From NCBI GenBank assembly GCA_027309085.1, contig DAIDDL010000003.1, positions 1 through 51,633 of the forward strand: DNA of 51,633 bases. The letters run 5' to 3'. A program made the translations under genes and the position numbers. This document shows, in pieces, positions 13,272 through 51,201 of this stretch. The notes below the pieces were generated by a model. The model had not been told where the DNA came from, searched no databases, and saw only the letters and a list, made by a program, of their open reading frames with translations. This DNA comes from Sulfobacillus sp. Its GTDB lineage: Bacteria > Bacillota > Sulfobacillia > Sulfobacillales > Sulfobacillaceae. The first letter of the stretch is position 1; the number at the start of each line of letters is the position of its first letter.

Positions 13272-13616
13272 TCATGATATCCTAAAGGCAGGCAAAAACA
13301 AACGCGTAATACCGACCAACAGCGGCGGCAGCCCCTCCCGGGCATGTGGCTTCCAGCCTGCCGAATAGTTTTCCGTAGTAAGACCAGAAAAATCTCGGCC
13401 AGACAAGCCGTTCAGGTCAATTTCCATCCCATGGACCGTGGATTGAACTAGAGTCCATTCCTGACAAAAACTCTGGGCCGGTTCATTTGCTTGCCCCCAC
13501 AGGCCCTCCCCCGCACCTTTTCCGTGTGATTCGCCGAGCGACCGCAGCTTGCTGCAAACATCTTCCAAAGTCGCTGCATTATGGCAATAGAGCAGGCCCA
13601 GACTGATAAGCCCCAA
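13272..13616 (-). CDS. Possible small exported hypothetical protein
   Basis: A leftward frame of 114 aa from TTG 13616, with a hydrophobic N-terminus (GLISLGLLYCHNAATLEDV) and a reasonable, non-repetitive composition. Codon choice looks coding rather than like an antisense shadow, and no other gene covers this interval. No convincing ribosome binding site was found, and the start lies close to the rightward promoter-like TATAAT at 13647. No family was recognised; a weak resemblance in layout to YwmB-like secreted proteins is not enough to name it. Confidence 0.35.
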   Translation of the reverse strand: MGLISLGLLYCHNAATLEDVCSKLRSLGESHGKGAGEGLWGQANEPAQSFCQEWTLVQSTVHGMEIDLNGLSGRDFSGLTTENYSAGWKPHAREGLPPLLVGITRLFLPAFRIS

Positions 13617-13646
13617 CGCATATCGTCCGTTTCGGACTACTTGCGC

Positions 13647-13652
13647 TATAAT
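13647..13652 (+). promoter_or_regulatory. -10-like TATAAT upstream of the copper/FixH-like operon
   Basis: A perfect TATAAT lies about 45 bp before the GTG start at 13698, preceded by TTGCGC directly adjacent. No good -35 is seen at 17 bp spacing. It is the best promoter candidate for the four-gene rightward operon. Confidence 0.4.
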
Positions 13653-13697
13653 AGCGGAAGAAATAAAACGGCTGGGGGCCTGAAGGAGATGGTGCCG

Positions 13698-14141
13698 GTG
13701 AACCACATCAGAGACAACCGCACAGCGCAGAAACTGGCGTCCATTCTCGGACTGGCGATCCTAGCGTTGTCGGCGGCAGGATGCGGGCAGGCGTCTGCGG
13801 CATCCCCACGAGGCTCCGCCACCGTGAAAATCAGCTCCCCGGGGATGACCACCACGGTCACCTACCGGCCTAATCCCGTGGTGGCTCTGAAACCTTTTCA
13901 TGTCACTGTATCGCTGCTGTCGGCAAATGGGAAGCCTGTAAGCAATGCCCACATCGTCATGCACCTCCAGATGACTGCCATGGATATGCCCGAGCAGACC
14001 TTCGCGCTGCAAAGCGCAGGCGGCGGGCGCTACCGCGGTCACAATATTTTTCTCATGGCAGGCACCTGGGATATGATTGCCCAGATCGATGTCGCGGGGC
14101 ATAAGACAAAGGAGACAGTTGCCGTCAATGTCAGCGATTAA
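13698..14141 (+). CDS. YtkA/FixH-like lipoprotein
   Basis: A 147-aa exported lipoprotein. A basic N-terminus and hydrophobic segment end in lipobox LSAAGC, followed by a YtkA/FixH-like beta domain (VTVSLLSANGKPVSNAHIVMHLQMTAMDMPEQ; the MTAMDM stretch resembles the metal-handling motif of this family). GTG 13698 is chosen because AAGGAG (13683-13688) is 9 nt upstream, while ATG 13689 abuts the ribosome binding site. It is first in an operon with a SafE-like protein and a FixI-like copper ATPase, which points to copper delivery or oxidase maturation at the outer face of the membrane. Confidence 0.8.
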   Translation: MNHIRDNRTAQKLASILGLAILALSAAGCGQASAASPRGSATVKISSPGMTTTVTYRPNPVVALKPFHVTVSLLSANGKPVSNAHIVMHLQMTAMDMPEQTFALQSAGGGRYRGHNIFLMAGTWDMIAQIDVAGHKTKETVAVNVSD

Positions 14142-14709
14142 GCGGCCTCTTCAGAATGCTTCCACCACCCATGCAGCGTTGCCGGATATCCGGAACAGAG
14201 TGTGGCGGTATATTGCCATCGTGATTTCTTTTTTAGGTTATGCAGCGGCCGTGTCGTATCACATCCAGCACCTCAGTTACCTAGCCGACCGCCACGGATG
14301 CGTGGATAATCACACGCTGCAATATACAGCCATTCTCGTCGCGGGCCTCTTGGGCGGGTTGGCCCTCGGACCTTGGGTGCTCAGGTGGTCGAGCAGCGCT
14401 ATCAAAGCGCTGATGCCGGATGCGTCAGACGAAATGCGAATGCGCAGAATAAAGGCCGTGTCGGTGGCTTTAATCCTGCTGGGAATGGCGGTGGATTTTC
14501 TGTGGATCATTCCTTCCCTGAATGTTTTCATCGACACCCATGTTCCGCTTTTGGTCGAAGTCGACCTTCTGCTCTATCTGATGGGGGTCATCGCTGGCGC
14601 CTCGTGGTACATTATTTTAGACCGGCAGGCTTGGCTGGGACTCTTGGTCACGCCCGCCATGGCCTTGATGATCATCGGCAGCGTGCTGGCAGGCCACGGG
14701 TGGTGCTAA
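14128..14709 (+). CDS. Unknown polytopic membrane protein in the copper/FixI cluster
   Basis: A 193-aa protein with about five hydrophobic segments: YIAIVISFLGYAAAVSYHI, YTAILVAGLLGGLALGPWV, AVSVALILLGMAVDFLWII, LLVEVDLLLYLMGVIAGAS, and LGLLVTPAMALMIIGSVLAG. The start ATG 14128 overlaps the end of the upstream gene by 14 bp, suggesting coupling. A histidine pair (YHIQHLSYLADRHGC) lies between the first two helices and could bind metal; this is inference. No family recognised. Confidence 0.7.
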   Translation: MSAIKRPLQNASTTHAALPDIRNRVWRYIAIVISFLGYAAAVSYHIQHLSYLADRHGCVDNHTLQYTAILVAGLLGGLALGPWVLRWSSSAIKALMPDASDEMRMRRIKAVSVALILLGMAVDFLWIIPSLNVFIDTHVPLLVEVDLLLYLMGVIAGASWYIILDRQAWLGLLVTPAMALMIIGSVLAGHGWC

Positions 14710-14798
14710 CAGATGCGCAGCAATTTTTTAACGGCCGTCAAGGTTCCGCGGCCGTCGTGAGCCAATCAACTTTATTCTAAAGAGACAGGAGCCAGTTC

Positions 14799-15530
14799 AT
14801 GAGCAGCACATTACTCGTATGGGCACTGGGTGTGGGTCTTCTCCAAGGCTTCCTTCACTGCACAGGTATGTGCGGTCCGTTTGTTCTGGCGTTCAGCATG
14901 TCTTTCCGCTCCAAGGACAGCACGGCCCGCCATCCTGGGCGGCAAGTGGTGGCAAGCCACATCGCACACAACCTGGGCCGCATCTTGTCCTTCACCATCA
15001 TGGGAGCCGTCTTTGGGGCGCTGGGCCATTTCGTCAACACTGCCGCTCACGCGACAGGTCTCGAAGCCGCCGCAGGCATCATCGGCGGGGGCATGATGAT
15101 CCTGTGGGCTGTCGACGAAGCCCGCAGCGGCCATGGCGGGGGGTTTATGGAGCGGTGGTCATTGCTCCAATGGAAACCCGTCCAAAAGGTGTTCCGCAAA
15201 CTCATGAGCGTCCGTACCCCGCGCGCCGCCTTTTTCGCGGGGATCATTCTGGGATTTCACCCCTGCGGCCTGATTTTTGCCATGCTGCTGTCGGCAACCG
15301 CCACCGGTTCGGCATGGGCGGGCGCCGTCACGATGCTGGCCTTTGGCATTGGCACCAGCCCGGCGCTCCTGAGCGTCGCGGCAGCTGGGTGGTATGGCAG
15401 CAAGCGCCTGCGCGGGCGCAAATTCACCTACATTGCCGCCGCGCTGATTGCCTTCAGCGGCATTCTCTTCTTGTTGCGGGGCATGGCGGTTAACGGGTGG
15501 ATTCCGGAGGTGAACCCATGGCTGTTCTAA
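14799..15530 (+). CDS. SafE/TauE-like membrane protein (CcoH/UreH-type, cytochrome oxidase maturation)
   Basis: A 243-aa polytopic protein of the DsbD/UreH-like transmembrane group. Diagnostic motifs are GFLHCTGMCGPFVLAFS at the N-terminus and AGIILGFHPCGLIFAMLL after the central loop, the paired cysteine motifs found in proteins encoded beside fixI/ccoI and copA. About six membrane helices are visible. Its stop overlaps the ATPase start by 13 bp. A role in electron or copper handling for oxidase assembly is inferred from context. Confidence 0.85.
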   Translation: MSSTLLVWALGVGLLQGFLHCTGMCGPFVLAFSMSFRSKDSTARHPGRQVVASHIAHNLGRILSFTIMGAVFGALGHFVNTAAHATGLEAAAGIIGGGMMILWAVDEARSGHGGGFMERWSLLQWKPVQKVFRKLMSVRTPRAAFFAGIILGFHPCGLIFAMLLSATATGSAWAGAVTMLAFGIGTSPALLSVAAAGWYGSKRLRGRKFTYIAAALIAFSGILFLLRGMAVNGWIPEVNPWLF

Positions 15531-17959
15531 CATGCTACTTATGCGAGCAGCCCGTTATCACGGAAGTTCCGGGAGACGGCCACGTCTTTTGCTGTCATGG
15601 CTGCCGGGAACTGTGGCGGCTGCTTGGTGATGAGGAAATCCAGGAACTCAAAAGCCGGCCCGGAATCAACTGGGAAAATCTGCGCGACAATATCGCCGTC
15701 CCCACCCCGGCCATTGCCTTGAATGCGGATCCGCAGACGGTCACCATTGACATTGACGGGATGTGGTGCGCATCGTGCAGCATCCTTGTGGAACAGGTGC
15801 TGACCCGTATGCCAGGAGTTTTGGGCGCGCAAATTGACTTTGCCACCAGCACGGCCCAGGTCGCTATGGACGCATCCGCCACGTCATCAAAAAATTTGGA
15901 AAACGCCATTATCAAGCTTGGCTACGATGCCAAAGAACGGGACAGGGACGACAGCGACCTTGAGTCTGACCGTGACCTCACCCTTCTGCGCCGCTTTGGA
16001 GTGTCGGCCGTGCTCACGGTCTTTGTGATGATGTTCAGCGTGCCCATCTGGTCAGGCTACCTGCCCACGTTTCCCCCGACCCTTCGCGATATTTTGGAGT
16101 ACGGCCTGTGGGCGATTGCCACTCCCAGCGTATTCTGGAGCGGGTGGCCCTTCCTGCGTGGAGCCTGGTCCTCCCTGCGCCATGGCGTGCCCACCATGGA
16201 CCTGCTCATCGCCATCGGCAGTCTATCGGCCTACGGATACAGTGTCTATACCATTTTCGCCGGAGGGCGCTATTTGTATTTCGACACCGCCACGATGTTC
16301 ATCACCTTCCTTTTGCTCAGCCGCAACCTTGAAGTAGGCACCCGCAACCGGGCTGCAGGCGTGGTGCGGATGCTCTCCCGCCTCAGCGTCAAGTCAGCCT
16401 GGCTGCTGAAAGACGGGCAGGAAGTCCAGACCGACATCAGCCAGGTGGGGATTGGAGACCAAGTTGTGGTGCGTCCTGGGGAAAAGGTCCCGGTCGACGG
16501 CACCGTCATCGCTGGCCACTCAGCAATCGACGAAGCCTTTTTAACCGGTGAGGCCATCCCCGTGGACAAATCTGTGGGATCTATCGTTTACGCCGGCACT
16601 GTGAACTCCACGGGCCGGCTCATCATTCAGGCGCTTAGAGTCTCAACCGACACGATTTTGGCCCAGACCGCCCGCTTTGTGAAGGCCGCCCAAGGCACAC
16701 AGGGCCAGTGGCGCAAGCTGGCAGACAGAGTCTTGCGGGTATTTGTGCCTGCAGTGCTGGCAGCCGGTGTGCTCACGTTCCTATACTGGCTCCTTGTCGC
16801 TAAAATCGGCACCGCGCCTTCCATGCTCCACATGATTGCCGTGTTCGTCATCGCCTGCCCCTGCGCCCTCAGCGTGGCTACCCCGCTGGCCGTGCTGGCA
16901 GGAGCCCAGCGTCTGGGCGGTTACGGAATGCTGCTGCGCAGCGACGACGCCTTGGAGCGGGCAGCTGATGTGGATACCGTGGTGCTGGACAAAACCGGCA
17001 CGCTGACCACGGGTCAGATGGCCCTTACCGGACTGTGGCCGGAAACACCAGAATTGCTCCAGCTCATCGGCTCTGTGGAAATCGCTTCCGAGCATCCTGT
17101 CGCCACTGCCGTGTCAAAATACGTCGAACAATCGGGAACGCCTCTGGTTCCTGTGAGCCAATTTGCCGAAGAACCCGGATGGGGCGTGTCAGGCGAGGTG
17201 GGGGGCCGCCATTTGCGTATCGGCGCACTAGATGGAGATGAACACTTTGACGGGGACATGGCAGCACTAGCTGAAACATGGCAGGAGGAAGGGCGCACCA
17301 TCGCCAAAGTGGTGGTGGATGGCCGCATTGCTGCCATCCTGAGCGTCGGGGACCAGCTCCGCCCTCAGGCACGCGAAGCCGTCAGAATGCTGAAATCCCA
17401 AGGCATGGATGTCTGGATGGCTACTGGGGACTCCGCCGAAGCGGCGGCCATGATTGCCAGCCAGGTCGGCATCACCCATTATCTGGCCCGGCAAAAACCC
17501 CTCGACAAGGCCCAGTTTGTGGAGACCCTGCAAGCTGAAGGACACCGCGTAGCATTCGTGGGTGACGGCATCAACGATTCTCCGGCACTGGTCAAATCCC
17601 ACTTGGGGATTGCGATGGGCACGGGCTCGGATATTGCCATTGAAGCCGGCCACCTAACACTGACCCGGCCCAACCTGATCAGTCTTGCAGATACGCTGAC
17701 CACCAGCAAGCAAGTGACCCGGATCATCAAGCAAAACCTGCTTTGGGCCCTGATATACAACACTCTCGCCCTGCCCGCTGCGGCTATGGGCTACACGGGA
17801 CCCTTTATTGCCGCCGTCTCCATGCTGCTGTCCTCAGCCTTTGTCCTGGCCAACTCTCTGCGCATTCTGGGGTTCTCTCCAAAACGGTACATTGTGAGTA
17901 CCAGCGTAGTCCTGGGGGTGGGCACCAGCCTTGCCCTGATTGCCTTCCTGGGCCTGTAA
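15518..17959 (+). CDS. Heavy-metal (copper) P1B-type ATPase, CcoI/FixI-like
   Basis: An 813-aa P1B ATPase. Order: an N-terminal cysteine cluster CYLCEQPV / FCCHGC (residues 5-35) as in FixI/CcoI; an HMA domain with MWCASC (near residue 85); membrane helices; actuator LTGEAIP; the metal-channel CPC at 447-449; phosphorylation motif DKTGT at D491; ATP-binding SEHPV; hinge GDGINDSPAL. ATG 15518 has GGAGGTG upstream; a longer frame from 15497 is less likely. FixI-type pumps supply copper to cbb3/aa3 oxidases rather than detoxify; with the upstream FixH-like and SafE-like genes this favours a maturation role. No oxidase genes are nearby. Confidence 0.93.
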   Translation: MAVLTCYLCEQPVITEVPGDGHVFCCHGCRELWRLLGDEEIQELKSRPGINWENLRDNIAVPTPAIALNADPQTVTIDIDGMWCASCSILVEQVLTRMPGVLGAQIDFATSTAQVAMDASATSSKNLENAIIKLGYDAKERDRDDSDLESDRDLTLLRRFGVSAVLTVFVMMFSVPIWSGYLPTFPPTLRDILEYGLWAIATPSVFWSGWPFLRGAWSSLRHGVPTMDLLIAIGSLSAYGYSVYTIFAGGRYLYFDTATMFITFLLLSRNLEVGTRNRAAGVVRMLSRLSVKSAWLLKDGQEVQTDISQVGIGDQVVVRPGEKVPVDGTVIAGHSAIDEAFLTGEAIPVDKSVGSIVYAGTVNSTGRLIIQALRVSTDTILAQTARFVKAAQGTQGQWRKLADRVLRVFVPAVLAAGVLTFLYWLLVAKIGTAPSMLHMIAVFVIACPCALSVATPLAVLAGAQRLGGYGMLLRSDDALERAADVDTVVLDKTGTLTTGQMALTGLWPETPELLQLIGSVEIASEHPVATAVSKYVEQSGTPLVPVSQFAEEPGWGVSGEVGGRHLRIGALDGDEHFDGDMAALAETWQEEGRTIAKVVVDGRIAAILSVGDQLRPQAREAVRMLKSQGMDVWMATGDSAEAAAMIASQVGITHYLARQKPLDKAQFVETLQAEGHRVAFVGDGINDSPALVKSHLGIAMGTGSDIAIEAGHLTLTRPNLISLADTLTTSKQVTRIIKQNLLWALIYNTLALPAAAMGYTGPFIAAVSMLLSSAFVLANSLRILGFSPKRYIVSTSVVLGVGTSLALIAFLGL

Positions 17960-18717: not shown

Positions 18718-19809
18718 CTATTCCTGCCCACCGGTGGGCTGCATCTCCGCATGGCCGAATACTTGCCGCACCGGCTGGTGCCGCAGCGCCCGGCGGACCG
18801 GCTCTTCATACCACTGGTAAATAAGGCCGCTGAGGACCACTGCCGTGACGAGCACCAACCCGTCCTGCCACAGGGGGCCATGATAATGATACAGACCCAC
18901 CTGTTGAAACGATCGCATGACCAAACGGTGAATCATGTAGAAAGCAAAACTCCAGTTGCCCAGCCGAACGAACACCGTGTATGAAAGCACACGGGACAGG
19001 TACCCCTGTTGATGCGCAAAGACCCATAAGAGAAACGCCCAGGCTGGCAGGTAGAGGGCGCTAAACCGAAGTGATTGCTCGATGTGGGGCCCCACCGCAA
19101 TCGTGCCAAAAGCCAGCAGCAGCGCTGCCATTTCCCACAGGGTCCACTGAAGACGCGAGACATGGGAGGTCCACTGGGTGCGGTGAAAAAGCAAGGCCGC
19201 ACCCATTCCGATAAAAAAATCTACCAAGCGCGCACCAGGAAAAATGTAGGCGGCCCAACTTTGCCACGAGGAATGGTAAGGAACCAACACTGATACAAGA
19301 CCCAACCATAGCACCCCCATCATCAGCACCACGTGACGGGTTCGGAGGTGAGCCGAAACTGCATGCCACCCTTGAATGGCCCAGGGAAACAGCACGTAAA
19401 ATGTAGCTTCGTCCGAAAGGCTCCACGCTACCCCGTCAAAGGAAAACGCGATAGCTAAATGCGGAATGTAACTTTGAATGAGGATGAGATTAGCCAAAGC
19501 CACACCAATCCAGTCCGCGGTACTACCGTATGCGTCAAGCGGGGTGAGGGGAATCGCCCACAAAAACGCCAGAGCATATACGGGATAAATCCGTGCAAAG
19601 CGCGCCCAGTAAAATTGGCGGCGTGCCCTGTAAGTCTGATGCCGAAATTTATCGCCATAGTTGTAGGTCAGAATAAATCCCGACAACGTGTAAAAAAATG
19701 ACACACCAACATATCCCGTTTGGTACGTGCGCAAAAATCCAATGTGCCATAAAAATACTAACAACACAGCCATAAATCGGAATGATGTCAAGGGCTTCAA
19801 TGGTTGCAA
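18718..19809 (-). CDS. Acyltransferase-3 family membrane protein (OafA/NodX-like)
   Basis: A 363-aa integral membrane acyltransferase. The N-terminus PLKPLTSFRFMAVLLVFLWHI carries the conserved catalytic-region His and Arg, followed by GYVGVSFFYTLSGFILTYNY and an RFARIYPVYALAFL segment, all typical of OafA-type O-acetyl/acyl transferases; about ten hydrophobic helices follow. It starts at TTG 19809 with GAGGAGG 13 nt upstream. It probably O-acylates a surface polysaccharide or lipid. It shares orientation with the sulfotransferase 1 kb away, suggesting a surface-modification locus. Confidence 0.9.
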   Translation of the reverse strand: MQPLKPLTSFRFMAVLLVFLWHIGFLRTYQTGYVGVSFFYTLSGFILTYNYGDKFRHQTYRARRQFYWARFARIYPVYALAFLWAIPLTPLDAYGSTADWIGVALANLILIQSYIPHLAIAFSFDGVAWSLSDEATFYVLFPWAIQGWHAVSAHLRTRHVVLMMGVLWLGLVSVLVPYHSSWQSWAAYIFPGARLVDFFIGMGAALLFHRTQWTSHVSRLQWTLWEMAALLLAFGTIAVGPHIEQSLRFSALYLPAWAFLLWVFAHQQGYLSRVLSYTVFVRLGNWSFAFYMIHRLVMRSFQQVGLYHYHGPLWQDGLVLVTAVVLSGLIYQWYEEPVRRALRHQPVRQVFGHAEMQPTGGQE

Positions 19810-20833
19810 TGACAGAATTATTCCTCCTCGTCCTGTTAGGGATTACCCCGACCGCGACACGTTTGGGAATAATAAAATAAGGCCCCTATAGGGAATACAC
19901 CGCATCTGCTGCGGGGCGGTGAAGTGGCAGCGGGCGGATACGTGGCTGTTTCTGTAGATTTTCAATGGGCTTGATGATAACAGCGGGTACTTATCTGACA
20001 AACGTATTCCTCTAAGGAGCCTCTTGCTTGTAATAGTCTGTAGTCTGCAGCGGCTGTTCGCCTGCGGCAAAGGTCTGCCATCTTTGAGTTTGTGCTGTCA
20101 AGTGCACTTTCGACCGGTATCGAGAACGTCGAATTCTTGTGGGTTCAACTGGCAAAACGACTGCCCAATGCTGACTAGTTTAACGGGCGCCGAATTTCGG
20201 CAGGTCAGCTGCTAAGCAAGATGGCCCTTGATGTGCACGAGCGTCACGCCCTTGCTCGTGATTATCTTGTCCCATACGGATATTCCACCCTTGCGGCTCA
20301 GCCGCGCTTGTGCCGGAATTTTTGGGGTCAGACAATGACCGACTCTCCAATCTCCCCGTTTTTCCGGCGTTAGATACTTGACCTTGCTGGTTTTTCCCCT
20401 TGCGTAATGAAAAGTGTCCTTAAACCTCCCGATCATCCTAACCATTGTGCTGGAGCTGGCTTATGGTAACGGGCCACGCCACTGTGGCTAAGAGTCCTTC
20501 TCCGGATAATTTTTCATAACGTCGTGCGGGCCCCCATCATATCGTCTCCCTTGTGGACGAGGTCATTATGATACCCCCCTCATCTTTCGGAACTGCTCCA
20601 ATTAACACCTATACCAATTATCCTCGCAGTAATGATCCCGCCCTGGGTTGTCAAAAGATTTTCTCCCAGTCCAGAGCACATGCAAAGGAAATACCAGCGC
20701 TCACCCTATCCCCCTCGGTTCCAACGAAATGAGGCCACCCGACTAATTGATACCAGGCGTGCACCCGCCAATGCGCGCCGGAACATCCATTGCGATGGAT
20801 CTCTTTGTCGTTAAAACTTTTCAAAGTCGGTTG
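19810..20833. other. Non-coding gap between acyltransferase and sulfotransferase
   Basis: About 1 kb with no convincing gene. The only frame of note is a leftward 77-aa one (20212-20445) rich in Lys/Arg, without a ribosome binding site or recognised family. The stretch may contain degraded sequence; nothing specific is recognised. Confidence 0.5.
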
Positions 20834-21862
20834 CTAGGTATTCCTTAGGCTCTGCACCTCGCACATTTGAGACCGAGTTCCGGTGGATTGGGGAAGTTTT
20901 CGGCCGAGCCACGGCTCGCGGTCGCGGTGAAGGCGCCAGCGGGTTCTGAACCACCAGCCTACGGCCCGTTTGTCCAGTCCGTCGAAAATACCGGGCTGAA
21001 GGGGAAAGCCACTCCGCCCCGCAGGCACTGCATAGTCGAGCTGCTTCAGATACTTTGCGTCCAGCCATGAAAACAAATTGACGTCGCGGTGGGGCATTTG
21101 GGTGCGCCACTTCTCCATATTGCGCGAATCAATGGGTGTGGCAGCCCGGTGTTTCCATGGTTCCCGAATAGGGTCAAAGAGCGGTTCGGCTCGGTACCGT
21201 TCCAACATGGCCGGTTCAAAAGGCCAATGCAGCCATTGACACACGCTGTTCATGGTGGCTGCAGGGTTTTGGACTAAGTCCTCAAATCGGATCTGATGAA
21301 AATCGTCTCTGTACAGTTTATGGTAGTAACTGGCTGCCCACTGATACTGCCGCCACTGGAGGGCATGATTAAAAGCATTGCCGGCATTCCAGGGAACATG
21401 GAGCAGTGATAAATGGACGTCACGGGGATCCCGCACAATGGCGAGAATCTTGGCGGATGGAAACAGTGATTTGATAACAGGCACGTACATAAAGTGATCG
21501 GGGGTTTTTTCTCCCCACACCGGTTTATTATGACCCTCGGCGTATGTACTCAAGATTAATGACAGGATGGTTTGATGGCTCAGCGATCCCTCGCTAAAGG
21601 CTTTCTTCAACGAAATCCGAAACTGCTCGTAAGGAAGATGCGTGAACTGGATGAAGTGCAAACCAAAAAAACGCGATAAGACTTGATCCACTTCAGGCCA
21701 TAATTTCAGCCCTGAGCTACGCTCAAGAGGTTTCCAGACCATAGTGAAATAGTCAGTTTCAGGACCGATGGCAATGTGGCTGTGCGCATTGAGCAGCGAT
21801 GCTAAAAGCGTGGTGCCAGACCGCGGCATGCCGACCACAAAGACAGGGTGCAACTTAGACAA
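20834..21862 (-). CDS. PAPS-dependent sulfotransferase
   Basis: A 342-aa cytosolic-type sulfotransferase. The 5'-phosphosulfate loop VVGMPRSGTTLLASLLNAH is at residues 9-27, and the 3'-phosphate motif is AIVRDPRDVHLSLLHVPW. WGEKTPDHF and FEDLVQNP are also characteristic of bacterial Sulfotransfer_1/3 proteins. The start TTG 21862 follows GGAGGCG by about 7 nt; the frame extends 16 codons further but without support. The acceptor is unknown. It diverges from a fused ATP sulfurylase/APS kinase gene that would make its donor PAPS. Confidence 0.9.
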   Translation of the reverse strand: MSKLHPVFVVGMPRSGTTLLASLLNAHSHIAIGPETDYFTMVWKPLERSSGLKLWPEVDQVLSRFFGLHFIQFTHLPYEQFRISLKKAFSEGSLSHQTILSLILSTYAEGHNKPVWGEKTPDHFMYVPVIKSLFPSAKILAIVRDPRDVHLSLLHVPWNAGNAFNHALQWRQYQWAASYYHKLYRDDFHQIRFEDLVQNPAATMNSVCQWLHWPFEPAMLERYRAEPLFDPIREPWKHRAATPIDSRNMEKWRTQMPHRDVNLFSWLDAKYLKQLDYAVPAGRSGFPLQPGIFDGLDKRAVGWWFRTRWRLHRDREPWLGRKLPQSTGTRSQMCEVQSLRNT

Positions 21863-21910
21863 TAGAACGCCTCCTCGCGTGACTCCCGCTCGGCACCAGC
21901 ACAGCCTCAC

Positions 21911-22280
21911 CTGAAACTTGTGCCGGCAAGAAGCGGATGGTATCCCATGAGCCTCTTACACGGTGGGCCAAATCGTTTCTCAGGACTCCTCTATTTGGAG
22001 GATTTCGCTTGATCGCCACAGCCATCCCAATTGATTCTATAGCCCTTAGGCGGTGTAAGTGTTACGAAACCATTACGAGATTGTCCTTTCAGCCAAAATT
22101 CAGCTTGGCGCGAAAGAACTTTGTGCAAGAAAATTGCTGTCCCTAAAAATCCTCTCTTGAGTGAGCGGAACTGCTCTTGGCCAAGCTGAAGAGGTGCTGA
22201 AGGCGCCCATTTATTCCATGTTATACGGTAGAATACTCCTTAACTTATTACCGACCACGACATTAAAGGATGCGACATGA
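21911..22280. other. Divergent regulatory region between sulfotransferase and sat-cysC
   Basis: 370 bp with no supported gene. It contains an 11-bp inverted pair TTCAGCTTGGC (22099-22109) / GCCAAGCTGAA (22180-22190) separated by 70 bp, and a TAGAAT hexamer about 50 bp before the sat-cysC start. No riboswitch class could be recognised. Confidence 0.45.
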
Positions 22281-23981
22281 GTGAAATGTGATTACCCTTG
22301 GATTCTGACAGATCGTCAGCGGTGCGATGTGGAGTTGTTGCTAACGGGTGCATTTGCCCCATTAAAGGGATTCATGACCGAGAAAGAGTACCGGTCGGTG
22401 TTGGAAGATATGATATTGCCATCCGGAGCATTATGGCCGATTCCTATTACACTGGATATTTCGCGAGAATTGGCAGAGAAATTGCAGGCGGGCGACATAC
22501 TGCACTTGCTGCGGGAAGATAATTCACCGGTGGCCCAGATCAAGGTCAACGATGTGTACCCAAGCGACTTGCCGCGGGAAATGCAACAAATTTATGGAAC
22601 GGACCACCAAGACCACGCCGGTGTGGCAATTCTGACTAAACGCCACCCATTTTACGTAGGAGGCACGGTATCCGAGACAAATCCCACCGTTTCGGAAATG
22701 GCCCGCCACGTGGACTTTCTTCCACCCTATCGCAAACCCAGCGAGTTGATGGAACGGTGGAAACAGATTGGGAAACCGGTCATTGCCTTTCAGACCCGCA
22801 ATCCCATGCACGGAGCTCATCAGGCCCTGACCATGGCCGCATTGCGGGAAGTAGGAGACTCACACCTGCTCCTGCACCCGGCTATCGGGCCAACCAATCC
22901 GGGAGACGTCCGTGCCGCGCAGCGTATCCGAGCAATATTGGCGCTGGCAAAAACCTATCCCCAGGATTCCGGCGGATTTCCTGTGGTGACCGTAGCCTCG
23001 CTACCGCTGGCTATGCGGATGGCAGGCCCCAGAGAAGCACTCTGGCACGCCATCATCCGGCAGAATTTTGGGGCCCAGTATTTCATAGTGGGCCGGGCGC
23101 CCGCTGATCCGGGGCGAAATCCGGCGTGCAGCGACGGATATTGGTGGCCTCCCTTTGAAGCCCAACGGTTGTTTCGCGAGGTGTCGCGCCAACTGACGAT
23201 CCAGCCCCTGTTCTATCCCGAATACGCCTGGCACCATTCGCGCCGGGAATTTCTCCCGTACCATGATGGCGACCAGTCGGGGTGCTTTATCCGTTTGTCG
23301 GGGTCCCGGATTCGCCAGCAATTGCAACGCGGAGAGGCATTGCCCGAGTGGTATGCGCCCCAACCCGTGCGCGACATCTTGCAAGCAGGAGCGGTGCCGC
23401 AGGAGCGCCGTGGGTTGGTGATATTATTTACTGGGCTGTCAGCGGCTGGAAAGAGCACATTAGCCAAGGCCTTATCAAATGTGTTGTCGATTCGGGATGC
23501 CCGTCCGGTCACACTGCTCGATGGCGATGTGGTCCGCCGCTACCTTTCCAAGGGATTGGGATTTTCTCCGGAAGACCGGCACCAGCACTTGGAACGCGTG
23601 GCGTTTGTCGCGCAGTTGATCTCGCGCCACGGGGGTATTGCTTTAGTGTCGCTGATTGCCCCCTACGAAGCCGACCGCCGGCTTTTTCGCAATATGATTA
23701 AGAAGGACGGCACGTTTGTGGAAGTTTACATGTCGGCTCCGCTGAATGTCTGCGAACAGCGTGATCCCAAGGGGCTGTATGCTCAGGCCCGGGCGGGTCA
23801 GGTGCAGCAGATGACGGGCTTGGACCTGCCCTATGAGGCACCGGAGAATCCCGACGTCGTCATTGACACCTCCGGTGAGTCCGTAGACATGGCCATGAGG
23901 CATCTTGTCGACTACCTCGAACAGCACCAGCTGGTGACGGTAGAGAATCTTGAACCTCTGTTTGCTCCGATTATTCCCTAG
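22281..23981 (+). CDS. Bifunctional sulfate adenylyltransferase / adenylylsulfate kinase
   Basis: A 566-aa PAPS synthetase. The N-terminal ATP sulfurylase (about 1-375) carries FQTRNPMHGAHQAL (QxRN and HxxH motifs) and VGRAPADPG. The C-terminal APS kinase (about 380-566) has Walker A GLSAAGKST, LLDGDVVRRYL and the IAPYEADR loop. It makes PAPS from sulfate and two ATP. The start is GTG 22281, with AAGGA 10 nt upstream. The Sat-CysC fusion next to a sulfotransferase suggests PAPS for sulfation as well as, or instead of, assimilation; no PAPS reductase is nearby. Confidence 0.95.
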   Translation: MKCDYPWILTDRQRCDVELLLTGAFAPLKGFMTEKEYRSVLEDMILPSGALWPIPITLDISRELAEKLQAGDILHLLREDNSPVAQIKVNDVYPSDLPREMQQIYGTDHQDHAGVAILTKRHPFYVGGTVSETNPTVSEMARHVDFLPPYRKPSELMERWKQIGKPVIAFQTRNPMHGAHQALTMAALREVGDSHLLLHPAIGPTNPGDVRAAQRIRAILALAKTYPQDSGGFPVVTVASLPLAMRMAGPREALWHAIIRQNFGAQYFIVGRAPADPGRNPACSDGYWWPPFEAQRLFREVSRQLTIQPLFYPEYAWHHSRREFLPYHDGDQSGCFIRLSGSRIRQQLQRGEALPEWYAPQPVRDILQAGAVPQERRGLVILFTGLSAAGKSTLAKALSNVLSIRDARPVTLLDGDVVRRYLSKGLGFSPEDRHQHLERVAFVAQLISRHGGIALVSLIAPYEADRRLFRNMIKKDGTFVEVYMSAPLNVCEQRDPKGLYAQARAGQVQQMTGLDLPYEAPENPDVVIDTSGESVDMAMRHLVDYLEQHQLVTVENLEPLFAPIIP

Positions 23982-24068
23982 CAATCAGCGTATTCAAGGA
24001 TTCAGCAGCCACCAAGAATTCTGGATAGCCTATATCTTCCCTTCCACTTCACCTATGCCGCGTAGACA

Positions 24069-24093
24069 TTCTGGAGTCCTGTGGACTCCAGAA
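24069..24093. repeat. 11-bp inverted repeat downstream of sat-cysC
   Basis: Arms ttctggagtcc and ggactccagaa around a 3-nt loop (tgt). It lies 88 bp after the sat-cysC stop and just before the IS3 OrfA gene. It could be a terminator without a T-run or part of an IS end. Confidence 0.4.
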
Positions 24094-24129
24094 CTAAGAC
24101 TACTGAAAACGGCTCGGTTAAGATACACT

Positions 24130-24426
24130 ATGGTTATGCCAAAACACTTTGATTCGGCCCTAAAAGCTGAGATCGTCTTGACCTGGTTGAAAGGACAAAA
24201 GTCTGTCACTGAAATCTGCCAGGAGTATGGTGCCCAGGCGGACCAAGTGAACCAGTGGTGCCGCACTTTCTTGGAGCAGGCTCCCACTGTCTTCCAAAAA
24301 AACACCCAGGGCGCGGATCTCCAGAAAAAGCACGGGAAAGAAGTGACCCGCTTGCAGGGGAAAATCGGCCGCCTGACGAAGCAGTTGTCGTGGCTTGAAC
24401 AAAAATCCGGCATCAAGCCAGACTAG
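24130..24426 (+). CDS. IS3-family OrfA transposase subunit, orphan
   Basis: A 98-aa helix-turn-helix protein (MPKHFDSALKAEIVLTWLKG, VTEICQEYGAQADQVNQW) followed by a leucine-rich coiled coil (LQGKIGRLTKQLSWLEQK), the IS3/IS150 OrfA layout. ATG 24130 is preferred; the frame is open to 23950. No OrfB (DDE domain) follows, so the element is incomplete and cannot transpose by itself. Confidence 0.8.
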   Translation: MVMPKHFDSALKAEIVLTWLKGQKSVTEICQEYGAQADQVNQWCRTFLEQAPTVFQKNTQGADLQKKHGKEVTRLQGKIGRLTKQLSWLEQKSGIKPD

Positions 24427-38289: not shown

Positions 38290-38850
38290 TCATTCCCGTA
38301 CGACCTTTTTCAATGCCCGATAGAGTGTCGTCCGCGACACATGAAAGGCGTGGGCCACCTCTTCCATGGTCAGGTCGGAGTTCTCCAATTGCCGTTGCGC
38401 CATCCGAATCTGGTCGGTGGATAGTCGCGGGGGCCGGCCCCCTATCCGTCCGCGGGCCCGTGCTGCCGCTAATCCCGCGGTGGTGCGCTCCCGAATCAGC
38501 GAACGCTCAAACTCGGCCAGCGCCCCGACAATGTGAAAAATGAGCTGCCCGCCGGATGTCGTGGTGTCCATGTTTTCTTGGAGACTCCGGAAGCCGATGC
38601 CCTCCGTGTGCAGTTGTTGGACCACTTGGATGAGATGCGCCAACGACCGCCCCAGCCGATCGAGTTTCCAGACCACCAGGACGTCCCCGGATCGGGCATA
38701 GGCCAGGGCCTCGGAGAGCCCCGGTCGCTCGGTGGTGCTGCCGGACATTACATCCCGAAAGATTTTTTCACAGCCCAACTGCTGCAGCGCGTCTTCTTGC
38801 AGGGCCAGCGTTTGCTCGGCCGTCGACACGCGGGCATATCCGATAAACAT
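38290..38850 (-). CDS. Serine recombinase (resolvase/invertase, TnpR-like)
   Basis: A 186-aa small serine recombinase. Catalytic S9 in MFIGYARVS, then DVMSGSTTERPGL, VWKLDRLGRSLAHL, EFERSLIRERTTAGLAAARARGR, and a C-terminal helix-turn-helix (MEEVAHAFHVSRTTLYRAL). It resolves cointegrates of Tn3-type elements. ATG 38850 follows GGGAGGGA; the longer frame from 38943 enters the likely res region. It appears intact. Confidence 0.92.
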   Translation of the reverse strand: MFIGYARVSTAEQTLALQEDALQQLGCEKIFRDVMSGSTTERPGLSEALAYARSGDVLVVWKLDRLGRSLAHLIQVVQQLHTEGIGFRSLQENMDTTTSGGQLIFHIVGALAEFERSLIRERTTAGLAAARARGRIGGRPPRLSTDQIRMAQRQLENSDLTMEEVAHAFHVSRTTLYRALKKVVRE

Positions 38851-39100
38851 GAGAATCCCTCCCCTTCTAGTGTTGCAGAACTCAGGCGCACTGTCTATTC
38901 TGAAACACGAGGTTTTGCAACAGCGTTTTGCAACATCCCGCATGCGGGTTGCGGGGATCGGGAGATCTCTCGAACGAGCGTTTCATAAACGGTCGTTTTT
39001 GCGACAGAGGCAAACATCGAGAAAACTACTAGGTGTGCGGGATCCTTGACCGCCTCCAACTTCCTCCGTTTATAATTCTTTATGACCGAATACATAATTC
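38851..39100. other. Candidate res site region upstream of the resolvase
   Basis: Contains repeated TTTTGCAACA (two near-adjacent copies around 38913-38935) and tgtctattctgaaac and cgtttcataaacggtcg-type dyads, the spacing and position expected for TnpR binding sites. The subsites could not be assigned firmly. Confidence 0.4.
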
Positions 39101-48125: not shown

Positions 48126-49019
48126 GTGGTGGACAATCCTGTCAGTTACGAGGCAGTGCTGGCCCGTATGCAGGAGGATCTGGTCTTGCGGGGCTTGTCG
48201 GTGAATACCCTGGATAGCTATCTCCGCAGCGTGCGCATCTTTTTAGCGTTTACGGGGCAGCCCATCGACCTCCTGGATACCCCTCACATCCGTCAGTTCC
48301 TGACGCACTTGATCCGCGAGAAGCACGTGGCTCCCGCCACCGTCAATACTTACAGCGCTGCGATTCGATTTCTCTTTGCGGTCACGTTGGATCGCTCCTT
48401 GAATTACCTCCAGATTCCGCGTCAGAAAGCCCCCAAAGTCCTGCCGGCGGTGTTAAGCCGCGCCGAAATCGCGGCGGTGCTCGCGCATTGCGCGAATATC
48501 AAACATCAAGCGCTCCTCACTCTGATCTATGGTTCCGGGCTCCGCGTTAGCGAAGCGGCCACGATGAAAGTGGCCGCGATTGATTCTGCTGCGGGGCGCG
48601 TCTTTGTCGCGGCGGGCAAGGGACACAAAGATCGCTATACCGTCTTGTCCCAGACGAGCCTGACGGTGTTGCGCGACTATTGGCGGGCGTACCGCCCGCA
48701 TCATCCCGACCACTGGCTGTTTCCCAGTTCGGCGCGAGCGGGGCATATCACCGCAGACGGCATCCAGTGGATATTCGCCCGCGCGGTGCAACGCGCACAG
48801 ATTACCCCATCGGTGTCCATTCATACATTGCGCCACTGCTTTGCCACGCACTTGTTAGAAGACGGCGCGACACTTTTGCAAATTAAGGAACTTTTGGGCC
48901 ATGCGAGCATTCAGTCCACCACGGTCTACTTACATCTCGCCCATCTGACCGCGCACGTGCACAGCCCGCTGGACCGGTATCCTGCGGACCCTCTCGGAGA
49001 CGTGCCCGATGGCCCTTGA
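48126..49019 (+). CDS. Tyrosine recombinase (XerC/D-like) of the composite element
   Basis: A 297-aa phage-integrase-family protein. N-terminal SAM-like domain (GLSVNTLDSYLRSVRIFLAF), catalytic domain with Arg in IYGSGLRVSEAATM, Lys in AAGKGHKDRYTV, HTLRHCFATHLLEDG (HxxR), LLGHASIQSTTVYLHL (His and nucleophilic Tyr). All five catalytic residues are present, so it should be active. GTG start behind ATGGAGCGCC. It overlaps the next gene by 11 bp, indicating coupled translation. Confidence 0.93.
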   Translation: MVDNPVSYEAVLARMQEDLVLRGLSVNTLDSYLRSVRIFLAFTGQPIDLLDTPHIRQFLTHLIREKHVAPATVNTYSAAIRFLFAVTLDRSLNYLQIPRQKAPKVLPAVLSRAEIAAVLAHCANIKHQALLTLIYGSGLRVSEAATMKVAAIDSAAGRVFVAAGKGHKDRYTVLSQTSLTVLRDYWRAYRPHHPDHWLFPSSARAGHITADGIQWIFARAVQRAQITPSVSIHTLRHCFATHLLEDGATLLQIKELLGHASIQSTTVYLHLAHLTAHVHSPLDRYPADPLGDVPDGP

Positions 49020-50154
49020 TCTGCAAGACATTGCTATTCAATACGGTCCCGCTTATCTGGAGACCCACCCGTCTTCTCCCGACCAACACAAGGTGGTGTG
49101 GGCGCTCCAGTCGTGCCGAACCGCCGCCTTAGGCGGTCACATCGATGCCTGTGACGCCTGCGGCGTCTTACGGATTTCCTACAATTCGTGTCGCAATCGA
49201 CACTGTCCCCAATGTCAGACCCTCAATCAAGTGCGGTGGGTCCAGGCGCGTCTCGGGGATCTGCTCGACGTGGGATATTTTCATGTCGTTTTTACCCTGC
49301 CCGCCGCGCTCAACGCAGTCGCGCTCCAAAACCCCCGCCTCGTGTATGGGATCCTTTTCCAAGCCGCTGCGGAAACGGTGGCGGAACTCGCGGCCGACCC
49401 GCACTATCTGGGCGCGCAGATCGGGATGACAGCCGTGCTCCATACCTGGGGACAAAATTTGCAGCACCATCCGCATTTGCACTGCGTGATTCCCGGGGGT
49501 GGGCTAACCTCCGGAGGTCAGTGGCAGCCGTCCCGCAAAAAGTTCTTTCTGCCAGTCAAAGTGCTCTCTCGAAAATTCCGGGGTAAGTTTCTCGCGCTCC
49601 TCCAGGCGGCGCCGCTCGCCTTTTATGGTGCCATTACGGAGCTCGCAGATCCCACCGCCTTTCAGACTTGGCTCGCCCCCTTGTATGCCCAGGACTGGGT
49701 GGTCTACTGCAAGGCTCCCTTTGCCTCGGCGGCCCATGTGGTGGCCTACTTGGGCCGCTACACGCACCGCGTGGCGATTGCCAACTCGCGCATCGTCGGC
49801 CTCACGGACGGGCAGGTGACCTTCCGGTGGCGGGATTACCGCGATGGTAACCGTCTGAAGTTGATGACCGTCACGGCCGAGGAATTCCTCCGGCGCTTTC
49901 TCCTCCATGTCCTGCCGACGGGCTTTACCCGGATTCGCCATTATGGGTTCCTCAGTGCCCGTAACAAGTCCTCCCAACTGCGGCGCTGTCAACAATTGAC
50001 CCACACGCTCCCCCCGGCTGAGGCGGCATTGCCGGCATCCAACTTGGCCCTATTCACCCAACTCACGGGCCGCGATGCCACCCTGTGTCCCGTGTGTCAT
50101 GCCGGCCACCTGCAATGGGCACGAGCCTCGCCCCCGGACCGTTTAAGTGCATAG
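49009..50154 (+). CDS. IS91-family HUH transposase (Y2-type)
   Basis: A 381-aa rolling-circle transposase. N-terminal zinc finger CDACGVLRISYNSCRNRHCPQC, the HUH block QHHPHLHCVIPGGGL, and the tyrosine helix VAYLGRYTHRVAIANSRIV, with two Tyr four residues apart. C-terminal second Cys pair CPVCHAGHL. It nicks and transfers single-stranded DNA. Coupled to a tyrosine recombinase gene immediately upstream, a combination known in some IS91 relatives. Confidence 0.93.
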   Translation: MALDLQDIAIQYGPAYLETHPSSPDQHKVVWALQSCRTAALGGHIDACDACGVLRISYNSCRNRHCPQCQTLNQVRWVQARLGDLLDVGYFHVVFTLPAALNAVALQNPRLVYGILFQAAAETVAELAADPHYLGAQIGMTAVLHTWGQNLQHHPHLHCVIPGGGLTSGGQWQPSRKKFFLPVKVLSRKFRGKFLALLQAAPLAFYGAITELADPTAFQTWLAPLYAQDWVVYCKAPFASAAHVVAYLGRYTHRVAIANSRIVGLTDGQVTFRWRDYRDGNRLKLMTVTAEEFLRRFLLHVLPTGFTRIRHYGFLSARNKSSQLRRCQQLTHTLPPAEAALPASNLALFTQLTGRDATLCPVCHAGHLQWARASPPDRLSA

Positions 50155-50432
50155 GCGGGGTCGGCCGCCCCTTCCGTGGGGAGGGGGCCTTTTGCGGATT
50201 CCGGAGGGTGCCCCCCTCGATCTCCTCTCGTTGACCTGCGGGACTCCTCGCGCTGGCTCCCCGGAAGGCTTGGCGCGCAGATTCATTCCCCATAGAGAGG
50301 CGGGGTGACCCGCGGTTTTGTCCAAAAGAATTATGCCCCAGTCTTGGCGCTGCTGTTCTCCGAGCGCTCTAATGCGTATACCCGACTGCGGATAATTCTC
50401 TATTTATAATGTAAAGCTTTACATTAAAAAGG
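50155..50432 (+). other. Non-coding right end of the composite element
   Basis: GC-rich inner part (GGCGGGG and CCCC-rich segments able to fold) followed by an AT-rich terminus. The last bases hold a perfect 20-bp palindrome TAATGTAAAGCTTTACATTA (50407-50426), two inverted copies of the 10-bp terminal motif. Possible origin/terminus of transposition. Confidence 0.6.
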
Positions 50433-51201
50433 CCTGGTGGAAGGGCTCGTGGGCTATGCACGCCGCACCTTCTTAGTCCCCGTGCCGGAGGTTCCCGACT
50501 GGGAAACCCTCAATGCGCACCTGCGCCACCAGTGCGAGCAAGAACGCTCGCGCGTCTTGCCACGCCGCGGGGGCGCCTCGATCGGCACGTTGTGGGACCA
50601 GGAACGCGCGGCGTTTCTTCCGTTACCGCCTCAGCCGTTTACTCCGGCCACGTGGTGGCCCGTGCGCGTGTCATCTCAAGCTCTGGTGCGCCACCAGCAG
50701 GTGGCGTATTCGGTGCCCACCCGCTATGTCGGGCAGCGGGTGCGGCTGGCCGCGTTTTGGGATCATGTGGAGGTGTGGACGCTCACGACGCAGATTGCCT
50801 CCCATCCCTTGGGCCAGCCCGGCACCCCGCAACTGGATCTCCTCCATTATCTCGACGCCTTACAGCAGAAACCCGGGGCCGTCCGCAATGCCCGCGTCGT
50901 CCGCGAGCTCGGAACGGTCGTGCGCGCCTACCAGGACGCCTTTTTCGCGGTGCACCCGACGGCCTACGGAGCGTTTGTGGACATTTTGTGGCTGTTTCGC
51001 CGCTTTCCGGCGGCGCAGATCATCGCGGCCCTTCCCGCCGCCCAGGCGGCGGGCTGCTTTGATGCGGAGGCCCTGAGTCGGCGTCTCCCGCCCACGGTAC
51101 CCGCTGATCGGACGCTGACCGAGCCCACCCGCGTCCCCCCGGGCCCGCCCGTTTCCCAACCGCATCCCCGACTCTACGATCAACTCACTGAGGAGGCCTG
51201 A
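50433..51201 (+). pseudogene. istA: IstA (IS21 transposase), C-terminal part
   Basis: Continues the interrupted istA: LVEGLVGYARRTFLVPVPEV, WETLNAHLRHQCEQERSR, and the C-terminal region VRHQQVAYSVPTRYVGQRVR typical of IS21 IstA, ending PRLYDQLTEEA. Its natural join to 47691 is through GWEKG/LVEG. No start of its own. IstB follows after 5 bp. Confidence 0.9.

Follow-up and report, generated by a model that had tools for sequence, protein, structure and literature searches.

A PAPS synthetase gene opposite a sulfotransferase gene in Sulfobacillus: a probable sulfation unit set apart from sulfate assimilation

In the available portion of the report on the AdpST "sulfation cassette" of Streptomyces davaonensis, the sulfotransferase is described as coming with its own genes for 3'-phosphoadenosine 5'-phosphosulfate (PAPS), while most bacterial clusters draw on a communal PAPS supply (PMC12135136). 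Here we present a locus of Sulfobacillus sp. (assembly GCA_027309085.1) in which the gene for a fused ATP sulfurylase (Sat)/adenosine 5'-phosphosulfate (APS) kinase, a PAPS synthetase, is divergent from the gene for a PAPS-dependent sulfotransferase. The window, meaning the whole 51,633-nucleotide stretch that was analysed, is part of contig DAIDDL010000003.1 (positions 1 to 51,633; C106 in our numbering) in a genome of 4.49 Mb in 172 contigs. Like the AdpST cassette, the locus places a sulfotransferase beside PAPS synthesis and apart from other sulfate activation. As far as the available account goes, however, the cassette has three separate PAPS genes and a polyketide synthase within a biosynthetic cluster, whereas the window has a fused and divergent synthetase with no biosynthetic neighbour, containing the only full APS kinase of its genome.

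Other described systems cover parts of this arrangement. S. acidophilus TPY has a cysI-cysH-sat operon that was followed by transcriptomics and whose cysH is called an APS reductase; it corresponds to a reductase and a kinase-less Sat on another contig of the present genome, C97, and represents the other sulfate-activation module, with neither APS kinase nor sulfotransferase reported in the operon in the accessible text (PMC5114278). For S. thermosulfidooxidans, the accessible sections report a sulfate adenylyltransferase, placed in sulfite oxidation, and no APS reductase (PMC4062416). NodH, a member of the sulfotransferase family PF13469, is described as sulfating glycolipids in the portion of the source available (PMC11625862). 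A literature search returned no paper containing both "Sulfobacillus" and "sulfotransferase", no description of the present arrangement for Sulfobacillus, and nothing on sulfated surface molecules of these bacteria. The chemistry is known and the enzymes are ordinary; the family-wide arrangement is new.

The reading we favor, at a probability of roughly three in four, is a two-gene sulfation unit comprising the fused synthetase and the divergent sulfotransferase, with assimilation kept separate and a nearby acyltransferase left out. The fused enzyme would convert sulfate and ATP to APS and then to PAPS, and the sulfotransferase would move the sulfuryl group from PAPS to an acceptor hydroxyl, leaving 3'-phosphoadenosine 5'-phosphate (PAP). 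Sulfate assimilation to cysteine would take a route of its own, by way of the CysH-type reductase and the neighbouring ATP sulfurylase on C97. Across the family, APS kinase would be reserved for sulfation, and the synthetase would stay opposite a sulfotransferase whose type varies by lineage. A surface glycan or lipid may be the acceptor, as suggested by what such enzymes are generally used for, an adjacent glycosyltransferase in a related genome (G013, below) and the acyltransferase-3 (AT3) genes found close to certain other sulfotransferases in the family.

The synthetase gene occupies positions 22281-23981 on the forward strand and encodes 566 amino acids, with complete Sat (N-terminal) and APS kinase (C-terminal) domains in one open reading frame (ORF). 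Pfam scores are 194 bits for APS_kinase, 186 bits for ATP-sulfurylase and 126 bits for PUA_2, and residues 10-548 align with the solved bifunctional SAT/APS kinase 2GKS (421 bits). The domain order is the same as in 2GKS; the window protein differs in being placed opposite a sulfotransferase and in falling below the cut-off of the NCBIfam bifunctional equivalog NF004040 (562.3 of 669 bits), and is not called that equivalog for the latter reason. No second full-length APS kinase exists in the genome, the only other match spanning just 41 positions at 21.4 bits. From these family matches, PAPS synthesis is the predicted activity.

The sulfotransferase gene at 20834-21910, on the reverse strand, is the genome's only PF13469/PF00685 gene. 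Its product matches Sulfotransfer_3 (PF13469) at 117 bits over profile positions 1-216 of 216. Translation probably starts at the TTG at 21862 rather than at the GTG at 21910, since a perfect AGGAGG, read by eye, lies 7 bases upstream of the former at 21870-21875. In an alignment of the sulfotransferase type found here (type A in our classification), R30-S31-G32-T33-T34, R160, S168 and E51 are invariant in all 12 sequences. We take RSGTT (30-34), R160 and S168 to be the 5'-phosphosulfate and 3'-phosphate sites for PAPS known from the superfamily, in line with the loops that an earlier note on this DNA had pointed out. E51 aligns with the Glu of the "GEET" stretch in the tyrosylprotein sulfotransferase (TPST) TPST1, a residue that is presumably the catalytic base of TPST, which makes the invariant Glu 51 a candidate base here. 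Among solved structures the best sequence match is the CurM sulfotransferase domain 4GBM (50.6 bits); TPSTs also match, chiefly across the PAPS loop. The PAPS-binding motif and the aligned Glu are thus shared with TPST1/2 and the CurM domain of the same superfamily, from which the window protein differs in standing alone and in having about 20% identity in fold alignment. Taken together, the matches and motifs suggest that it may transfer sulfate from PAPS.

The three gene identities given in that note (AT3, PAPS sulfotransferase, fused Sat/APS kinase) are borne out by family matches far above chance, all three ORFs are open and complete, and the strands of the last two confirm the divergence it described. 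Between them lies a region of 418 bp (21863-22280, counted from the TTG start) with an imperfect inverted repeat (22088-22109/22180-22201). It contains no sigma-70-like consensus site (a promoter scan gave 3 sites against 3.0 expected), and no Rfam match was found in the scanned window stretch, this region included, or in contig C97.

A further argument for the unit comes from the distribution of its parts in 34 genomes of the Sulfobacillus family. APS kinase and sulfotransferase are both present in 27 genomes and both absent from 7, and neither occurs alone; in the 23 genomes with completeness of at least 90% and contamination of at most 5% the corresponding counts are 20, 3 and 0. Count tables were compiled by hand, and one sulfotransferase, that of G007, has no Pfam match and was found only by a hidden Markov model (HMM) built in the analysis; without it, 26 genomes have both, 1 has APS kinase alone, none has sulfotransferase alone and 7 have neither. 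The system had been called unusual for a Firmicute. This agrees with 14 control genomes, in which PF13469 matched only in Caulobacter and Bacteroides, but not with the family itself, where sulfotransferases are present in 27/34 genomes.

Proximity points the same way. A Pfam-listed sulfotransferase lies within 5 kb of 22 of the 29 APS-kinase domains (23 with G007, in which the HMM-found gene sits between cysC and sat), where gene numbers and genome sizes predict about 0.19, so that PAPS genes stand beside sulfotransferases above chance in the relatives as well; coordinates of APS-kinase domains within fused proteins were estimated by hand from query ranges. CysH does not track APS kinase: CysH is present but APS kinase and sulfotransferase are missing in G016, G019 and G020, and G017 and G018 show the reverse. 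Of the 37 strong CysH genes among 41 PF01507 rows (four weak rows, G014:C497, G016:C8 and two of G025:C101, were dropped), none has an APS kinase or sulfotransferase gene within 10 kb, and 29/37 have a kinase-less Sat no more than 3 kb away. Because APS kinase follows sulfotransferase and not CysH, and because the C97 cluster is separate, the family's PAPS seems to be reserved for sulfation and kept out of sulfate assimilation. If APS kinase and sulfotransferase are gained and lost jointly, envelope sulfation in bioleaching bacteria would become directly testable, and caution would be called for in assigning every ATP sulfurylase of these genomes to sulfur energy metabolism.

In five genomes (G013, G015, G017, G018 and G007, all but the last in the window's genus) the genes form a cysC - sulfotransferase - sat row on one strand, resembling an operon. 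G017 and G018, which lack CysH, have one sat inside this row and a second sat outside it. Such rows offer another home for a sat like that of S. thermosulfidooxidans, as far as the available text describes it (PMC4062416), though both genomes keep the second copy outside. A family-4 glycosyltransferase gene, identified by Pfam, adjoins the row in G013 (L087:9659-10771) and has a homolog in G015 (L150:9591-10700), which hints that the acceptor in these two may be a glycan.

Comparison of the fused synthetases reveals that the layout is conserved and the partner is not. Fused synthetases are present in 13 genomes, with only a fragment in a fourteenth, G024. Among the 12 relatives, 11 have contig room opposite the synthetase, and in 11/11 that position is taken by a divergent sulfotransferase of another type, B. 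Type-B proteins have 283-363 amino acids as listed, Pfam having been run on two of them; with one member searched, their nearest solved relatives are the Alicyclobacillus acidocaldarius sulfotransferase 3RNL (171 bits) and heparan sulfate sulfotransferases, proteins that are akin to type B and not to the window's type. With the type-A model, which includes it as a member, the window sulfotransferase reaches 537 bits; the type-B model does not detect it. When compared with one type-B protein by BLASTP, it aligned over little beyond 28 residues at the PAPS loop. Twelve genomes, the window's among them, clearly have type A, with a distant thirteenth in G005, and in 11/11 of the other type-A genomes no Sat or APS kinase was found in the examined surroundings of the gene. 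In the synthetase tree the window protein joins genus g11 with support of 100/100, and there the partner is type B, with no type A found. The simplest reading would be that the window's lineage changed partner, type A probably replacing type B.

These results bear on two points of the earlier note. It had proposed checking whether the three genes are conserved in relatives; the synthetase-sulfotransferase layout is kept, but the partner type differs and AT3 is not kept with them. It had also held that a sulfotransferase unlinked in relatives would speak against the system. For type A this is the case in all 11 other genomes that clearly carry it, and the wider idea of a sulfation unit survives because the relatives' synthetase faces another sulfotransferase, type B. 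A bolder extension is possible, albeit doubtful: in this family of acidophilic Firmicutes the synthetase may act as a fixed "socket" beside which unrelated sulfotransferases (types A, B and C) are swapped between lineages, so that each lineage would sulfate a different envelope molecule, with APS kinase serving sulfation only and some ATP sulfurylases now assigned to energy metabolism belonging to sulfation instead. As a separate observation, another sulfotransferase type, D, lies beside a protein of about 450-490 amino acids in genera g3, g5 and g7 (L080, L082, L158, L159, L187, L190); this neighbour is a PQQ/BamB-like beta-propeller by Pfam in L082, and the others are tied to it through a BLAST cluster, or through no more than size and position.

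Several points weigh against the two-gene unit. Fisher values for APS kinase versus sulfotransferase (1.9e-7 for 34 genomes, 5.6e-4 for 23) are overstated because the genomes share ancestry. Linkage is also incomplete. Besides G007, six APS kinases have no Pfam-listed sulfotransferase within 5 kb. One of them, in G018 (C1:2430156), is a real exception at the sensitivity used. The other five are at contig ends or fragmentary: in G029 the contig ends within the synthetase and a type-B gene lies at the end of another contig, in G024 the APS kinase is a fragment, and in G004, G009 and G010 the contigs end shortly past sat. The structure model of the window sulfotransferase, from a two-row alignment, is poor (pLDDT, the predicted local distance difference test, 46.5), and a fold search with it lends weak support, with TPSTs as the best matches at about 20% identity. 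Moreover, the type-A tree gives the protein no supported position, and the synthetase of the window sits on a long branch in its own tree. Lastly, the C97 reductase passes the general NCBIfam cut-offs for CysH (phosphoadenylyl-sulfate reductase) and reaches 230.3 of 235.3 for APS_reductase and 196.3 of 254.2 for PAPS_reductase. Since it is not clearly APS-only on these scores, it might also use the PAPS made by the synthetase.

The earlier note saw the three genes as one envelope locus for both sulfation and acylation of the same surface glycan or lipid, which we now consider unlikely. The AT3 gene (18718-19809, reverse strand, 363 amino acids) encodes a membrane protein matching Acyl_transf_3 at 66 bits, with no SGNH domain. 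It is near the sulfotransferase gene and on the same strand, and elsewhere in the family the two do meet: in S. harzensis a type-A sulfotransferase gene overlaps an AT3 gene by 4 bp, with an SGNH/GDSL-like gene next; in G024 the gene after a type-B-like sulfotransferase encodes an AT3 59% identical to that of S. harzensis; and in G017 an AT3 gene lies upstream of cysC, with a similar gene in G018 cut by the end of the examined stretch. The window AT3, however, has no significant similarity to those of S. harzensis and G024. Its 74% ortholog in G019, of the same genus, lies amid unrelated genes, and its genome lacks both sulfotransferase and APS kinase; comparison of that region with the window gave no synteny beyond AT3 itself and no demonstrable empty site. 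In addition, the gene is 1 kb from the sulfotransferase, across a gap of 1,024 bp (19810-20833) with no recognisable gene in comparison with relatives' loci, and is one of three AT3 genes in its genome. Across 59 scanned loci AT3 occurs in only four, the window counted, with a search model built from these same four, and is not conserved with either sulfotransferase or synthetase in the relatives. The window AT3 thus gives no sign of belonging to the unit and, given its ortholog in G019, is probably a bystander; we rejected it as a core member on that context and on its lack of similarity to the sulfotransferase-linked AT3 proteins. Of the dedicated sulfation and acylation system once proposed, the PAPS supply for sulfation stands, on the separate C97 module and the 34-genome association, and the acyltransferase does not. 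The S. harzensis row (L010:9986-12986) is a better candidate than the window for combined sulfation and acylation.

It is quite improbable that the synthetase chiefly feeds assimilatory reduction, supplying PAPS to CysH, with the sulfotransferase as a chance neighbour. In its favor, the genome's CysH passes general phosphoadenylyl-sulfate reductase models, as noted above. Against it stand the distribution and placement of CysH genes across the family, which go with kinase-less Sat and not with APS kinase. In the window's genome the only PF01507 (PAPS/APS reductase) gene lies on C97 and not on C106, adjoining a separate kinase-less ATP sulfurylase, so that a second sulfate-activation route exists elsewhere in the genome. 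By inspection, this reductase has both a CC and a CxxC pair, features that we take to mark iron-sulfur APS-type reductases. A Pfam scan of the 30 window ORFs revealed no sulfite reductase or sulfate transporter. The absence of a nearby PAPS reductase and of sulfite reductase or cys transport neighbours had been correctly noted before, and a reductase operon joined to sat-cysC, then named as a finding that would overturn the idea, was not seen here or in the family. The synthetase was therefore rejected as a member of an assimilation operon.

Least credible is that the window pair is a mobile-island remnant, imported together and non-functional in its host: an IS3-type transposase OrfA fragment lies 3' of the synthetase (about 24140-24426, forward strand, within an ORF listed as 23950-24426; weak Pfam and NCBIfam matches), the G+C content of the sulfotransferase gene is 0.53 against 0.58-0.61 for several neighbours, and the other 7 genomes in the genus contain neither the window sulfotransferase type nor the fused synthetase, but both ORFs are intact, every PAPS-site residue is kept, and other members of the genus hold APS kinase and sulfotransferase sets of their own.

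A repeat search found no direct repeats flanking the synthetase-sulfotransferase unit, and PADLOC gave no match. Toward the right end of the window, 38290-38943 and 48126-51201 form a mobile stretch with resolvase, phage-type integrase, IS91-type and Mu-type transposase genes. On the other side of the locus, genes for a small secreted-looking protein, a DsbD-like membrane protein and a heavy-metal P-type ATPase follow one another at 13581-17959 in what looks like a copper-handling operon.

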